A DNA stretch of 64,000 bases from contig NZ_CP021361.1 in NCBI RefSeq assembly GCF_002157145.1, positions 558,001 through 622,000 on the forward strand, read 5' to 3'. Below the pieces are notes generated by a model. That model saw only the letters and a program-made list of their open reading frames with translations, was not told the origin of the DNA and did no database searches. This DNA is from Acidovorax carolinensis. GTDB lineage: Bacteria > Pseudomonadota > Gammaproteobacteria > Burkholderiales > Burkholderiaceae_C. The translations under genes and the position numbers were made by a program. Shown one piece after another: positions 6,420 through 39,724 of this stretch (within the stretch, counting starts at the first letter, position 1; the number at the start of each line of letters is the position of its first letter).

Positions 6420-6932
6420 ATGAGCAACGCACAGCTCCCCAACAAACTGCAGCGCTCGCTGATGCGCCTGGACGAGGCCCCCGCCTTCATGCGGGGCTTT
6501 GTGCAGAACATCATCCTGCGCCGCGCCGTGCCCTTCACGGGCACGGCCGGGGTGCGGTTTGTGTCGCTGACGCCCGAGCGGGTGGAAGTGCGCCTGGCCA
6601 ACGAGCATCGCGTGCGCAACCACATCGGTGGCGTGCACGCCTCGGCCATGAACCTGCTGGCCGAAACGGCCACCGGCATGGTCGTGGGCATGAACGTGCG
6701 CGACGACTGCATCCCGTTGGCTAAGGAGCTCAGCATGGCGTTCAGGAAGCGCGCCACCGGTGCGCTCAAGGCCGTGGCCACGCTCACGGCAGAGCAGCGT
6801 GCGGCCATGCAGTCCAGCGACAAGGGCGAGGTTCAAGTCAAGGTCACCGTGACCGACGAAGCCGGCGTGGAGCCGGTCGAATGTGCATTTACGTGGGCCT
6901 GGGTTCCATCCAGCCGCCCCGCCAAGAATTGA
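6420..6932 (+). CDS. Hotdog-fold thioesterase-like protein (DUF4442)
   Basis: A 170-residue single-domain hotdog protein. The hallmarks are the RNHIGGVHASAMNLLAETATG helix region near residues 60-80 (quoted here only in part as NHIGGVHASAM) and the C-terminal VECAFTWAWVP strand. DUF4442/PaaI-like proteins hydrolyse acyl-CoA thioesters or hold CoA ligands; the exact substrate is unknown. It is separated from the upstream gene by the family-B repeat and from the thiolase by only 11 bases, so it is probably co-transcribed with the beta-oxidation genes, where it could recycle CoA from dead-end acyl-CoAs. ATG 6420 gives the usual family length; an earlier ATG at 6327 lies in the repeat. Confidence 0.8.
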   Translation: MSNAQLPNKLQRSLMRLDEAPAFMRGFVQNIILRRAVPFTGTAGVRFVSLTPERVEVRLANEHRVRNHIGGVHASAMNLLAETATGMVVGMNVRDDCIPLAKELSMAFRKRATGALKAVATLTAEQRAAMQSSDKGEVQVKVTVTDEAGVEPVECAFTWAWVPSSRPAKN

Positions 6933-6943
6933 AGGAGTTACCC

Positions 6944-8143
6944 ATGGCCAAACAAGTCCAGGAAGCCTACATCGTCGCGGCCACGCGCACGCCCATCGGG
7001 CGCTCGCACCGCGGCTTCTTTCGCAACATGCGCCCCGATGATCTGCTGGCGACCACGCTCAAGGCCGCGTTGGCTGCAGCGCCCGGGCTCGATCCCGCCG
7101 CCATCGAAGACATCATCTGCGGCTGCGCGATTCCCGAAGCCCAGCAGGGCCTGAACGTGGCGCGCATTGGCGCCGTGCTGGCGGGGTTGCCCACCAGCGT
7201 GGGCGGTATCACCGTCAACCGCTTTTGCGCATCGGGCCTGTCGGCCGTGCAGATGGCGGCCGACCGCATCCGCGTGGGCGAGGCCGAGGTGATGATCGCT
7301 GCCGGTGTGGAAAGCATGAGCATGGTGCCCATGATGGGCAACTCGCCCAGCCTGTCGCCCACCATTTTTGAGCGCGAAGGCGACGTGGGCATTGCCTACG
7401 GCATGGGCCTCACGGCCGAAAAGGTTGCCCAGCAGTGGAAGGTGAGCCGCGAAGCGCAGGACGAGTTTGCGCTGCAGTCGCACCTCAAAGCCCTGGCCGC
7501 ACAAAAGGCCGGCTACTTTGCCGACGAAATCACACCCATCGAAGTGACCGACCGCACGGCCAACCTCGAAACCGGCGAGTCCATCGCCACCACCCGCACC
7601 GTGAGCCTGGATGAAGGTGCACGCGCCGACACGTCGCTGGAAGGTTTGGCCAAGCTGCGCACGGTGTTTGCGGCACGCGGCTCCGTCACGGCGGGCAATA
7701 GCTCGCAGACCAGCGATGGCGCAGGGGCCCTGATCCTGGCCAGCGAATCGGCCGTGAAGCGCTTTGGCCTCACGCCGCTGGCGCGGTTCGTAAGCTACGC
7801 CGCTAAGGGCGTGCCACCGCACATCATGGGCATTGGCCCCATCGAGGCAATTCCTGCGGCGCTGCGCTATGCCGGCCTCAAGCACCAGGACATCGACTGG
7901 TTCGAGCTGAACGAAGCGTTTGCCGCGCAGTCGCTGGCGGTGATGAACACGCTGGGGCTGGACCCTGCCAAGGTGAACCCGATGGGCGGCGCGATTGCAC
8001 TGGGGCATCCGCTGGGGGCTACCGGTGCCATCCGCTCGGCGACGGTGGTACATGCGCTCAAGCGGAACAAGCTGAAGTACGGGATGGTGACGATGTGTGT
8101 GGGGATGGGGCAGGGGGCTGCGGGGATTTTCGAGGCGGTTTGA
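6944..8143 (+). CDS. Acetyl-CoA C-acyltransferase (thiolase, FadA-like)
   Basis: A 399-residue thiolase that cleaves 3-ketoacyl-CoA with CoA to give acetyl-CoA and a shortened acyl-CoA. The nucleophilic Cys95 lies in NRFCASGLSAVQ, the histidine in GGAIALGHPLGATGA, and the second catalytic Cys385 in MCVGMGQGAAG, so the enzyme should be active. GAAGGAG ends six bases before ATG 6944. The protein is full length for the degradative class. Position right after the hydroxyacyl-CoA dehydrogenase/hydratase and the hotdog protein makes it the last step of the same pathway. Downstream is the large inverted-repeat element, so this may end the first transcription unit of the cluster. Confidence 0.93.
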   Translation: MAKQVQEAYIVAATRTPIGRSHRGFFRNMRPDDLLATTLKAALAAAPGLDPAAIEDIICGCAIPEAQQGLNVARIGAVLAGLPTSVGGITVNRFCASGLSAVQMAADRIRVGEAEVMIAAGVESMSMVPMMGNSPSLSPTIFEREGDVGIAYGMGLTAEKVAQQWKVSREAQDEFALQSHLKALAAQKAGYFADEITPIEVTDRTANLETGESIATTRTVSLDEGARADTSLEGLAKLRTVFAARGSVTAGNSSQTSDGAGALILASESAVKRFGLTPLARFVSYAAKGVPPHIMGIGPIEAIPAALRYAGLKHQDIDWFELNEAFAAQSLAVMNTLGLDPAKVNPMGGAIALGHPLGATGAIRSATVVHALKRNKLKYGMVTMCVGMGQGAAGIFEAV

Positions 8144-8175
8144 TTTTTTGGGTTTTGGTTTTTTGGGTTTTTGGA
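8144..8175. other. T/G-rich tract after the thiolase gene
   Basis: Runs of T and G (TTTTTTGGGTTTTGGTTTTTT) follow the thiolase stop directly. The tract is unlike the GC-rich surroundings. It may contribute to termination but there is no stem before it. Confidence 0.4.
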
Positions 8176-8441
8176 GGGCGGAGGCCGGGTCTCGGCCCGG
8201 CGGCCGACTCACTTTTCTTTGCTTCGCCAAAGAAAAGTAAGCAAAAGAAAGGCGACCCACAGTCTGCGGCCCCTGCGGGGCAACCTGCGGCGGTGCGCTT
8301 GCGGGGTACCGTGGAACTCGCTACGCGCTAGCGCGCTGCGCTCGGACAACCACGGCGAGTCAGATGACGAAGCGGGTGTGTCCTGCGGCACACCCGCTCA
8401 CCCTGCAACCGCCCCGCCGCAGGCGCAGTCAGATGGGGTTG

Positions 8442-8473
8442 AACAGCCCAACAGCCCAACAGCCCAACAGCCC
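8442..8473 (+). repeat. Tandem octamer repeat, four copies
   Basis: The unit AACAGCCC occurs four times in perfect tandem inside the inverted-repeat element. Copy number of such short arrays often varies by replication slippage. Confidence 0.95.
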
Positions 8474-8478
8474 ACGGG

Positions 8479-8554
8479 CCTTCGCTGCGCTCGGCCCAAG
8501 TTGCGCAGCGCGAGGCGCTTGCGCCCGCGCTTTGGGGGCCGAGCGCAGCGAAGG
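8479..8554. repeat. Perfect 19-bp inverted repeat in element centre
   Basis: CCTTCGCTGCGCTCGGCCC at 8479-8497 is the exact reverse complement of 8536-8554, with a 38-base GC-rich loop. As RNA or single-stranded DNA it would form a very stable hairpin. Confidence 0.9.
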
Positions 8555-8922
8555 TCCGTGAGGATGTCCGGTTTCGGGTTCCCTTCAGGATGCGCCGAGG
8601 AGCGCAGCGGCCAGCGGATCAGGGCTCGCGATTGTCTGAGCGAAGCGAGTTCGAGCGAGACCCCGCTGGGCGCGAGCACCGCAGGTTGCCCGCAGCGAAG
8701 CGAAGGGACGCAGCGTGTAGGGTCGCTTTTTCTTTGGTGACTTTCTTTTGTCGAAGCAAAAGAACGTTACTGTGCCGCCGGGCGCACACCCCGGCCTCCG
8801 CCCTCAACCAAGGCAAGTCGCCCCTTGCAGAAGATCACACCCCACTCCCACTATCAAATCAACCACCAAACCAGTCCCCCGCACGACGCTTCCCTCGCCC
8901 ATTTCACGGCACACTTCTCCCC

Positions 8923-9747
8923 ATGACCGCCTCACACCCCTTCGACCAAGCCACACAGCTACACGCCGAAACCCCCGGCCAGTACCAGGGCCACACCCAC
9001 CCTGGTTACTGGAACATGGTCGGCCCCTTTGGCGGTATCACGGCGGCCACTCTGCTGCAGGCCATCTTGCAGCACCCCGACCGGCTTGGCGATCCGCTAT
9101 CGCTCACCGTCAATTACGCAGGGGCACTGGTGGCCGGTCCGTTCACGGTGCAGGCCACACCGGTGCGCACCAATCGGTCTACCCAACACTGGACACTGTC
9201 GATCATGCAGGCCGACGCCGAGGGCGCCCAGGTGGTCACCACCACCGCCACCGCAGTGACGGCAGTGCGCCGCGAGACCTGGAGCGCGGGCGATGTGCCC
9301 ATGCCCGGCGTGCCACAGCCGGCGGATCTGCCCGCCATTCCCCCGGGCTTTGGTTCGGAGTGGCTTAGCCGCTATGAGATGCGGCCCGTGACCGGCACAC
9401 TGCCGCGCGCCTGGGACGGCAGCGGCGACCACAGTCTGACTCAGCTGTGGATGCGCGATGCACCCCCGCGCCCGCTCGATTTTTGTGCGCTGGCGGCGCT
9501 GGCCGATGTCTTCTTTCCCCGCGTCTGGTTGCGCCGCGCGCACCGCGTGCCGGCGGGCACCGTGTCCATCACGGTGTACTTTCATGCCAGCGCCGCCCAG
9601 TTGCAGGAAACGGGCATGGGCTACCTGCTGGGCCAGGCGCGCGGGCAGGAATTTCGCAACGGCTTTTTTGACCAGACCGTGCAGCTGTGGAACGAGGCGG
9701 GCACCATGCTCGCCACCAGCCACCAGATCGTTTACTACAAAGAATAA
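8923..9747 (+). CDS. Acyl-CoA thioesterase, double-hotdog family
   Basis: A 274-residue protein of the TesB-like/4HBT_3 type: an N-terminal hotdog domain (about 10-120) with NMVGPFGGITAATLLQA and a C-terminal hotdog domain (about 150-270) with FCALAALADVFFPRVWLRR and QIVYYKE at the end. Such enzymes release CoA from acyl-CoAs, and double-hotdog members dimerise to form the active site. ATG 8923 is chosen because the upstream sequence is the repeat element and gives no protein-like residues. It is 56 bases from the enoyl-CoA hydratase gene in the same direction. Promoter sequences for this second half of the cluster would have to lie at 8804-8922, which is C-rich and shows nothing I can name. 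Confidence 0.85.
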   Translation: MTASHPFDQATQLHAETPGQYQGHTHPGYWNMVGPFGGITAATLLQAILQHPDRLGDPLSLTVNYAGALVAGPFTVQATPVRTNRSTQHWTLSIMQADAEGAQVVTTTATAVTAVRRETWSAGDVPMPGVPQPADLPAIPPGFGSEWLSRYEMRPVTGTLPRAWDGSGDHSLTQLWMRDAPPRPLDFCALAALADVFFPRVWLRRAHRVPAGTVSITVYFHASAAQLQETGMGYLLGQARGQEFRNGFFDQTVQLWNEAGTMLATSHQIVYYKE

Positions 9748-11956: not shown

Positions 11957-12370
11957 TCAGGACTGCACGGGAACCGGGCGCGGCCGGCCTTCGGCATCAA
12001 TGGCCACATAGGTCAATTGCGCCTCGGTCACCTTCAGGTATTGGCCCTGCTGGGACATGCGCTCGGCATACACCTCCACATCCACCGTGATGGAGGTGCG
12101 GCCGATGCGCGTGACATGCGAGAAGAACGACAGGATGTCACCCACGCGCACCGGCTGCTTGAACACGAACTCTTTCACCGCCACCGTCGCCATGCGGCCC
12201 CGCACATAGCGCGCCGGCAGCACCGCGCCGGCCAGGTCCACCTGCGCCATCACCCAGCCGCCGAAGATGTCGCCGTTGGCATTGCTGTCGGCAGGCATGG
12301 GGATGACCTTCAGTACCAGTTCGTGGCTGCAGGGCAACGCTGGCGGGGCAAGGGTGGGCAGGTCAGTCAT
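11957..12370 (-). CDS. Acyl-CoA thioesterase (YciA-like)
   Basis: A 137-residue hotdog thioesterase. The YciA signature is seen in ADSNANGDIFGGWVMAQVD near residues 27-45, containing the conserved Asn/Asp of the active site, with VKEFVFKQPVRVGDILSF following. YciA cleaves a wide range of acyl-CoAs. The start (ATG at 12370-12368) matches the family; the longer frame to 12622 runs antisense through the exporter gene and is rejected. It is divergent from the ABC exporter, whose start is only 40 bases away, so the two promoters overlap. Ending sequence RPRPVPVQS is usual for the Comamonadaceae homologues I know. Confidence 0.88.
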   Translation of the reverse strand: MTDLPTLAPPALPCSHELVLKVIPMPADSNANGDIFGGWVMAQVDLAGAVLPARYVRGRMATVAVKEFVFKQPVRVGDILSFFSHVTRIGRTSITVDVEVYAERMSQQGQYLKVTEAQLTYVAIDAEGRPRPVPVQS

Positions 12371-12410
12371 AGGCACAATCTCGGTAAAACAACCATCGGA
12401 ATTGTCCTCC

Positions 12411-14227
12411 ATGCGCCACCACGGCGAGCCTTCTCCCCCCCCTCCTGCTGAAAACCCTGCGCAAAAGCGCTCCGACTGGGCAACGCTCTCACGCTTGCTG
12501 CCATACCTGTGGCAGTACAAGTGGCGCGTTGTCCTGGCCATCGTGTTCATGGTGGGCGCCAAAGTCGCCAACGTGGGCGTGCCGGTGCTGCTCAAGAACC
12601 TGGTCGATGCCATGGCGTTCAAGCCCGGCGACCCGGCCGCCGTGCTGGTGGTGCCGGCCGGTCTGCTGCTGGCCTACGGGCTGTTGCGCCTGTCCACCTC
12701 GCTGTTCACCGAGCTGCGCGAACTGGTGTTTGCCAAAGCCACGCAGGGCGCCGCGCGCTCGATTGCCTTGCAGACCTTCGAGCACCTGCATGCCCTCTCC
12801 CTGCGCTTTCATCTGGAGCGCCAGACCGGCGGCATGACGCGCGATATCGAGCGTGGCGTGCGTGGCATCGAATCGCTGATCTCGTTCACGCTGTTCAACA
12901 TCGGCGCCACGCTGATCGAAGTGTTCATGGTGCTGACCATTCTGGCGCTGCGCTTTGATGCCTGGTTTGCCTGGATAACGCTGGCCGCGCTGGCCTGCTA
13001 CATCACCTTCACGGTGCTGCTGACCGAGTGGCGCACGCAGTTTCGCCGCCAGGCCAACGAGTTCGACTCGGCCGCGCACAGCAAGGCCGTCGACTCGCTG
13101 CTCAACTACGAAACCGTCAAATACTTTAACAACGAAAGCTTCGAGGCCCGGCGCTACGACGAAAGCCTGCAGCGCCTGCGTGCCGCCCGCCTGAAGGCGC
13201 AAAGCTCGCTCTCGCTGCTCAACACCGGCCAGCAGCTCATCATCGCCACGGGCCTGGTCGCCATGCTCTGGCGCGCCACGCAGGGCGTAGTTGATGGCCG
13301 CATGACGCTGGGTGACCTGGTCATGGTCAACGCCTTCATGATCCAGCTTTATATTCCGCTGAACTTTCTCGGCGTGATCTACCGCGAGATCAAGCAGAGC
13401 CTGACCGACCTGGACAAGATGTTCACGCTGATGGACAAGGAGCGCGAGGTGGCCGACGCCCCGGTGCGCAGCCGCTGGTGGGGCTGGCGCAGCCCACGGT
13501 GCGGTTCGAGAATGTGCAATTTGCCTACGACCCGGCGCGGCCCATCCTCAAGGGCATCAGCTTCGAGATTCCGGCGGGCAAAACGGTGGCGGTGGTCGGC
13601 CCCTCGGGGTCGGGCAAGTCCACGCTGGCGCGACTGCTGTTTCGCTTTTATGACATCCAGCAAGGCCGCATCACCATGGCCGGGCAGGAAATCCGCGACG
13701 TGACGCAGGCCAGCCTGCGCCAGGCGATCGGCATCGTGCCGCAAGACACCGTGCTGTTCAACGACACGGTGGCCTACAACATCGCCTACGGTCGCCCCGG
13801 CGCCAGCCAGGCCGAAATCGAGGAAGCCGCCCGCGCCGCGCGCATCCATGATTTCATCGCCTCCACGCCCAAGGGCTACGCCACCATGGTGGGCGAGCGG
13901 GGCCTCAAGCTGTCGGGGGGCGAGAAGCAGCGCGTGGCCATTGCGCGCACGCTGCTGAAGAACCCGCCAGTGCTGATTTTTGACGAGGCCACCTCGGCGC
14001 TGGATTCGGCCAACGAGCGTGCCATCCAGGCCGAACTGCAAAGTGCCGCCCGCAACCGCACCACGCTGCTCATCGCCCACCGCCTGTCCACCGTGGTCGA
14101 TGCACACCAGATCCTGGTGATGGATGCCGGCGAGATCGTCGAGCGCGGCACGCACAGCGAGCTGCTGGCCCTGGGCGGACGCTATGCCAGCATGTGGGCG
14201 CTGCAACAGAATGAGAGCCCCCTTTGA
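12411..14227 (+). CDS. Atm1-type ABC exporter, permease-ATPase fusion, apparent frameshift
   Basis: An ABCB7/Atm1-like half-transporter: six transmembrane helices in roughly residues 20-330, then an ATPase domain with [32 protein letters not shown] and [11 protein letters not shown]. Members of this group export glutathione-linked sulfur or metal conjugates. The first frame runs from ATG 12411 to the linker KEREVADAP at 13463 and then turns to nonsense; the ATPase part reads in the next frame. Inserting one G in the GG at 13463-13464 gives [20 protein letters not shown] and a 605-residue protein of normal size. No separate start or ribosome site serves the second half. A sequencing error is the best explanation; a real lesion would disable the exporter. 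Confidence 0.82.
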
Positions 14228-39262: not shown

Positions 39263-39710
39263 GTGAAGCGCGCCAGACCGCCGCTGGTGCAATCTGGGAA
39301 ACCAGGCACTGGAGGAACGTCCGGACTGCACAGGACAGCGTAGCAGCTAACGGCTGCCCACCGTGAGGTGAGGATCAGAGCAACAGAGACGAGTCAGGTC
39401 GTTTTCAGCCACCAAGGGTGTTCTATGGGGTGCCAGCGCAAGCTGGCATCGGCTGGCGCAAGCCAGACGCTCAGGCGCAAGCCTGAAGCCCCATAGCCGC
39501 CCAAGGCGCGGAACGCGACTTGGGTGAAACGGGCAATCTCTACGCGCAGCAATACCAAGTAGGCCAGCGTTGATGTGGTTCCGCAGAGCTGGCGGGTAGG
39601 TAGCATCGAGCCGTGGTGGCGACACCCGGCCCAGAGTAATGGCGGTCACGCCGCGGGCCTTCGCAAGAGGGTCAGCGGTGCACAGAATCCGGCTTATCGG
39701 CGCGCTTCAC
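39263..39710 (+). ncRNA. rnpB: RNase P RNA (class A) with enlarged P12 region
   Basis: The catalytic RNA of RNase P, which matures the 5' ends of tRNAs. The universal segments are present: GAGGAACGTCCGGACTGC near the 5' end and ACAGAATCCGGCTTATC near the 3' end. The P1 helix is the perfect pairing of GTGAAGCGCGCC (39263-39274) with GGCGCGCTTCAC (39699-39710). At 448 nt it is some 70 nt longer than the E. coli RNA. The extra length is at 39423-39496: an outer stem CTATGGGG/CCCCATAG encloses three hairpins, each capped by GCAA (stems 39431-39448, 39453-39466 and 39471-39486). Ends are set from P1 pairing; a few bases of trailer are possible. Confidence 0.95.
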
Positions 39711-39724
39711 ACTTTTCATGAAAA

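Follow-up and report, generated by a model that had tools for sequence, protein, structure and literature searches.

A dispersed giant palindrome at gene ends in Acidovorax, mostly oriented with the inferred replication fork

The DNA analysed here (the window) is a stretch of 64,000 nucleotides from Acidovorax carolinensis (NZ_CP021361.1, positions 558,001 to 622,000). Between a thiolase gene and an acyl-CoA thioesterase gene, which are codirectional on the plus strand, lies a giant palindromic element (Table 1). The original prediction had described a gene-free imperfect palindrome at 8176..8803; the near full-length palindrome is real, and its true extent goes slightly beyond those limits. 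The ends are inverted copies (GGGCGGAGGCCGGG at 8176-8189, with the complement at 8790-8803), and the long complementary arms include 72 nt at 75% and 13 nt at 100% (GGGCAACCTGCGG), with further blocks pairing across the element. Arm-against-arm alignment gave 214 complementary columns of 283; whereas 100 single-base shuffles averaged 169 and never exceeded 185. The DNA fold was -227 kcal/mol, compared with -152 +/- 5 for 20 dinucleotide shuffles (z -14). The perfect 19-bp central pair and the octamer array, both also predicted, were present as well. Two open reading frames inside the element were tested, and neither has a Pfam match. At the window's own locus, the element of the relatives sits after a hydratase gene and not before the thioesterase gene; from sequence comparison, this difference may be either a shift or a rearrangement.

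Two other features of the window were recorded. A bacterial RNase P class A RNA is located at 39265-39712 (+, 193 bits). An ABC-transporter-like frame at 12267-14227 (+), named by eye, seems to be split, as the ORF 12267-13703 overlaps a coding signal at 13478-14227; a frameshift or a sequence error is possible.

Table 1. Features of the palindromic element and its neighbours (window coordinates).
Feature	Positions	Strand	Basis or remark
Core, giant palindromic element, window copy	8172..8807	+ (pointing with the inferred replication fork)	Boundaries common to full-length copies; profile score 582 (+) vs 253 (-)
Left terminal inverted repeat	8172..8189	+	17 of 18 bases of consensus TTGAGGGCGGAGGCCGGG
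Right terminal inverted repeat	8790..8807	-	18 of 18 consensus bases
Left terminal motif, possible intrastrand triplex: pyrimidine/purine hairpin with an additional, third purine tract (ACTTTTCTTTG..CAAAGAAAAGT..CAAAAGAAAGG)	8211..8252	+	Sequence; motif also at the ends of relatives or on its own in other Proteobacteria
Inverted right copy of terminal motif, degenerate	8725..8771	-	
Perfect 13-nt arm, partner 8679-8691	8278..8290	+	
Mate of arm 8278-8290	8679..8691	-	
Octamer array, AACAGCCC x4	8442..8473	+	Profile-independent marker of core orientation
Central hairpin, left arm, 25 nt	8473..8497	+	One mismatch; perfect 19-bp stretch
Central hairpin, right arm	8536..8560	-	
T-rich left flank	8144..8171	+	Site of outer repeats T1 and/or T2 in most full-length family members; window copy without both
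Upstream neighbour, thiolase	6881..8143	+	PF00108, PF02803; longest ORF, true start possibly further in
Downstream neighbour, acyl-CoA thioesterase	8923..9747	+	PF13622, PF20789

The element is not a single copy. Matching pieces in its own genome (4.12 Mb, one contig) numbered 27 and were grouped into seven copies, including that of the window; the arms are also conserved, with paired changes. Strong matches (E <= 1e-60) were found in 39 of 47 genomes of the genus, the own genome included, and the other eight had no strong match. The exact core pattern matched 74 stretches in named genomes, 72 of them in Acidovorax and two in one Gammaproteobacteria MAG. Related DNA (E <= 0.001) extends into the wider family, where 109 of the 200 genomes sampled and 88 of the 141 genera have it, many of these rows representing one arm only. 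Partial relatives were found in 15 plasmid records by the plasmid search; the phage search found no relatives. A literature search, largely outside subscription journals, found no description of the palindrome family.

A total of 93 copies from 13 genomes were mapped. The first set contained 54 copies from seven genomes (an eighth, G002, has none), and the fresh test set contained 39 copies from six further genomes, mapped after the fork pattern described below had been noticed in the first set. These copies fall into 22 loci, of which 15 are common to at least two genomes and 14 are occupied in at least three, with the orientation mostly kept; the presence at each locus is patchy. Twelve genomes were mapped along their entire chromosome contig, and each holds 5 to 10 copies. 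In genome G016 (contig C81, about 127.5-129.2 kb), several element pieces follow one another on one strand, which suggests local multiplication. The consensus of 42 copies carries an 18-bp perfect terminal repeat (TTGAGGGCGGAGGCCGGG / CCCGGCCTCCGCCCTCAA).

The core is nested in outer repeats at many places. Complementary flanks beyond the core exceeded the best of 20 shuffles in 33 of the 54 first-set copies. At the five printed loci, many of the genomes have, from the stop codons inward, T1 (AGCGCTTAT..ATAAGCGCT..TAGCTATT), zero to several T2 (CCGTTCGGGCTGAGCTTGTCGAAGC) and a spacer, then the core, beyond which the series returns in mirror image; the outer repeats extend towards both stop codons. 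T1 stands on both sides in 46 of the 78 full-length copies, on one side in 28, and on neither in 4; T2 is absent from both sides in 28, and its left and right numbers correlate (rho 0.54). The window copy has T1 on neither side and T2 counts of 0/0. Both units also occur elsewhere in the sampled DNA, T2 as a short-loop hairpin at five places.

The terminal motif (hairpin plus third purine tract) also has relatives of its own, and its exact pattern occurs in 8 of 398 genomes of the phylum (0 matches for the reversed control). An inverted mate within 900 bases was found in G000, G152, G109 (not for all copies), G642, Pasteurella, and Variovorax. At the tested loci of G574, G612, G591, G636, Burkholderia, Aeromonas, and Pseudoalteromonas, there was no inverted mate, or one barely above shuffles. 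In G574, from another family of the same order (L298 1278-4571), two terminal motifs lie in 282-nt inverted repeats, which are 98% complementary and 2.7 kb apart, and enclose a PAAR-motif gene and a gene for Tae4 (a type VI amidase effector). Arms of the terminal-motif type can flank gene cargo. In its sequence plan alone (pyrimidine-purine-purine), the motif is similar to the intrastrand triplex motifs PIT, BoxC, and TM-ECO (PMC4666352); whereas it is A/T-richer and part of a 640-bp palindrome.

A giant structured RNA was one of the readings in the original prediction. A consensus structure of 156 pairs was derived from 42 aligned full-length copies and evaluated on the same alignment, which favours it: among 6,505 pair cells, 86 were broken, 98 had changes on one side, and 336 had changes on both sides. 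The two-sided changes fall in 36 of the 156 pairs; whereas 8-14 pairs and 17-72 cells were obtained when the partners were slid by 1, 2, 3, or 5 columns. The conservation of sequence also extends outside the paired columns. By construction, the fold of each strand favours its own wobble (197 G-U to 37 A-C for the plus strand, 349 A-C to 43 G-U for the minus strand), and therefore the 97 pairs found on both strands were used. Their 4,050 cells include 3981 Watson-Crick pairs, 25 G-U, 20 A-C, and 24 others. An RNA transcribed from one strand should tolerate G-U more than A-C. Since G-U is as rare as A-C here, the counts point to a DNA process, either a single-stranded or cruciform hairpin or the copying of one arm from the other, and favour conservation of the pairing as a DNA structure rather than an RNA. 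The conserved structure of the RNA reading was thus found, but the wobble-tolerant one-strand covariation and an Rfam match were not (no family above the cut-off in the element). The central hairpin (8467-8568) weakly matched two microRNA families at 31 and 27 bits, well short of the cut-offs of 75 and 80 bits; these matches probably reflect just the long hairpin.

The copies are placed at gene ends. The genes were called by a home-made codon-usage method, so that single gene strands may be wrong. The junctions of the 93 copies are convergent in 55, codirectional in 38, and divergent in none, although some of these labels may be wrong since the flanking gene is more than 400 bp away for 11 copies and a transposase gene had been missed at one of them (L067). 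By comparison, the background gaps longer than 40 bp without an element are convergent in 90 and divergent in 193 of 879. By locus, 14 of 22 are convergent. Loci in the named genomes (n=74), which are of the same genus and so not independent, were convergent in 31, codirectional in 13, divergent in none, and undetermined in 30; those in other genera (n=27) were convergent in 11, codirectional in 11, divergent in one, and undetermined in 4. For the Variovorax relative, the annotated genes on either side are convergent.

The core is nearly palindromic yet directional, and the forward profile scores about 1.3 to 2.8 times the reverse in full-length copies. Origins were taken from the dnaA position. 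A dif-like pattern had no match in eight genomes, and the terminus was therefore assumed to lie half-way round the chromosome. Of the 78 full-length copies, 70 have the core oriented with this inferred fork, as do 9 of the 15 partial ones. The first set has 49 of 54 copies with the fork; in the fresh genomes the agreement was weaker, with 30 of 39 (26 of 31 full-length). Because many loci recur in both sets, loci are a fairer unit than copies. By majority, all 18 loci holding full-length copies are with the fork (two-sided p 8e-6), or 18 of 19 after splitting locus 5, which in our reading seems to be a merger of two. Across all 22 loci, 19 are with the fork and three against, and those three hold only partial copies of 266-344 bp. 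Among the loci found only in the fresh set, the full-length-bearing 17, 19, and 20 and the partial-only 21 are with the fork; the partial-only 14 and 18 are against it. Six of the eight full-length exceptions are clean flips in place, as the flanking genes match crosswise between species (5 to 8 crossed, 0 parallel). The near-origin loci 9 and 14 (such as G004 4872964, G018 2849620, G250 1604865, and G258 4740066) were seen to hold short partial copies alone, many of which run against the fork. The full-length ones begin at a relative distance of 0.17 from the origin, and the locus positions showed no difference from uniform in a KS test (p 0.18).

Of the 93 regions, 79 have a local 20-kb GC skew in agreement with the assumed fork and 14 have one in disagreement; the core strand agrees with the skew in only 40 of 54 first-set copies. 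Mutational strand skew was rejected as the source of an apparent orientation, given the excess of forward over reverse profile scores and the octamer array, which alone gives the strand of the profile in 67 of 68 scorable full-length copies (10 were not scorable); the array agrees with the fork in 61 of the 68. Gene direction was also rejected as the cause. At loci 6, 17, and 21 (6, 1, and 1 copies), the genes run against the fork and the core runs with it, and 12 of 12 convergent loci are also with the fork. The counter-cases are three copies that follow the genes and not the fork (two at locus 5 and one partial at locus 18).

These data bear on another part of the original prediction, a transcription insulator. 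The broader form of this reading is a bidirectional terminator or insulator, or a structured RNA from read-through of the upstream gene. The position at gene ends fits it, with none of the 93 junctions divergent and the outer repeats reaching towards both stop codons at the printed loci; however, termination alone does not account for a core oriented with the fork against the genes at loci 6, 17, and 21. Moreover, intrinsic-terminator matches at the window copy (7900-9100) were at the shuffled level (2 vs 1.7 expected), and the rarity of G-U on the strand-neutral pairs and the lack of an Rfam match over the cut-off also speak against it. This reading is considered improbable.

The copies within a genome resemble each other more than copies that occupy one locus in separate species. 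In a quick tree of the 78 full-length copies, the genome label changes 36 times (minimum 55 and mean 60 in 200 shuffles); whereas the locus label changes 58 times (minimum 55, mean 61). For 43 copies the nearest relative comes from the same genome, for 4 from the same locus, and for 31 from neither. In an earlier tree of 42 copies, all six copies of G022 form one clade. Conversion or replacement therefore seems to have affected the copies at shared loci; an alternative may be that insertion took place independently at preferred sites. The highest identity between copies of one genome was 0.946 (42 copies), and in the absence of near-identical copies no recent movement or burst was seen.

The original prediction also proposed a MITE-like mobile unit, and the multiple dispersed copies with terminal inverted repeats support this part. 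The classical form would be a MITE mobilised by an insertion sequence that has matching ends (TTGAGGGCGG..CCGCCCTCAA) and encodes a DDE transposase. The 18-bp repeats and the many dispersed copies speak for it; beta-clamp-binding transposases can also show orientation bias (PMC5371812). However, direct repeats of at least 7 bp flank only 3 of 78 full-length copies, with 2.5 expected from re-paired flanks, so that there is no signal of target-site duplication. No clean empty site or duplication was found in the seven regions compared: at locus 12, G011 lacks both the element and the next gene, and in the other six only one flank matches over its length. The 93 copies occupy only 22 loci, the orientation is tied to replication, and no insertion sequence with the ends of the element was met, in what was not a systematic search. 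The transposase found at L067 abuts a truncated copy. There, at 8529-9709 (G000 about 970.8-972.0 kb), transposase genes (HTH_Tnp_1; HTH_21 and rve) adjoin an element copy cut to 409 bp (G000 972095), which is probably an insertion that truncated the element. The classical MITE is thus very improbable.

REPINs are paired inverted REPs, mobilised in trans by RAYT/TnpA-REP. Like them, the element is non-coding, located at gene ends, and hairpin-forming, with inverted outer units around an insert. REPs are 20-40 bp and REP stems are reported with GT pairing (PMC3733652); whereas the core is about 640 bp, is present 5 to 10 times in each of the 12 fully mapped genomes, and shows no wobble preference. 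By itself, the outer unit T1 is short, and it is also found at other places. REPs are mostly found between codirectional and convergent genes (PMC3733652), and in this the element is similar to the BIMEs and the GTAG- and CGTC-tagged REPs; its size, nested architecture, and fork orientation are different. Some tandem REP arrays are oppositely oriented on the two sides of the chromosome (PMC3116915). IS200/IS605 orientation follows host replication via the lagging-strand template (PMC5371812, PMC6006769). The element also follows the replication fork; however, it has no transposase gene, its ends are long inverted repeats, and its loci are common to several species. It is like MITEs in being non-autonomous and dispersed with terminal inverted repeats (18 bp in the consensus of 42 copies); whereas the lack of a target-site duplication signal, the near full-length palindromy, and the fork orientation are unlike MITEs.

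A Y1_Tnp match was found in 44 of 47 genomes of the genus, also where a strong element match is absent (G002, G003, G237, G243, G246, and G257). Near Y1_Tnp, T1 was seen in two of the seven regions viewed and the core in none of the seven, and the link of the repeats to a RAYT is weak. The genome G259 (contigs C1-C5) has 36 strong Y1_Tnp matches and one weak; all 13 on C1 are on the minus strand, all 13 on C2 on the plus strand, and four of five on C3 on the minus strand. This set is a ready orientation control for single-stranded DNA transposition in the genus.

In summary of the direct evidence, the element is multi-copy, bounded by 18-bp repeats, placed at gene ends, alike within genomes, and oriented with the fork as inferred, and its arms are complementary without wobble preference on either strand. 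The fork link, the pairing at the DNA level, and the lack of target duplications fit the handling of single-stranded DNA on the lagging-strand template, as in IS200/IS605 (PMC5371812); the data are less compatible with a structured RNA or a classical MITE. At about even odds (roughly 0.5, for the description and the mechanism together), the element belongs to a giant REPIN/MITE-like palindrome, a non-coding and non-autonomous dispersed repeat of which it forms the core and which acts as a hairpin on the lagging-strand template. The core's top strand would lie on that template, which would be transiently single-stranded at each fork passage and allow the core to fold into a long hairpin. A putative single-strand DNA enzyme in trans (with HUH/Y1, TnpA-REP-like, as the obvious class) or hairpin-primed template exchange might then insert, replace, or convert copies, which would fix the orientation. 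Gene ends, and convergent ones above all, would tolerate such a hairpin because no promoter is there; a block of read-through between the neighbours might be a by-product.

The orientation might alternatively be selected, and not a trace of insertion, if the element were a chromosomal site with a replication function at fixed loci, where the lagging-strand hairpin would give a polar signal at gene-end junctions, such as one for priming or for restart of the fork. The 14 loci occupied in at least three genomes with mostly kept orientation, the conservation outside the paired columns, and the minority of flips (eight of 78 full-length copies against the fork, six of them clear flips) are consistent with such a site. 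However, the presence at the loci is patchy, eight of 47 genomes have no strong match, flipped copies persist, and the copies are few and vary in number (5 to 10 in 12 genomes), which makes a fixed replication site unlikely. A further proposal, doubtful to a slightly greater degree than the terminator, is a fork-polar chromosomal signal: a giant lagging-strand-template hairpin at gene-end junctions would be read by the replication or repair machinery in each cycle, the same exposure would drive template exchange among the copies, and the nested outer repeats would be earlier hairpins with later ones inserted in their loops. If this were true, exchange among all copies would yield concerted evolution without locus memory, the lack of wobble pairs, and the flips in place.

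Instability would be expected of long palindromes in bacteria. Despite this expectation, these giant palindromes share chromosomal sites across several species and have kept their arms matched. The link to the direction of replication offers a concrete way of testing how extragenic palindromes originate and spread, as single-stranded DNA at the fork.
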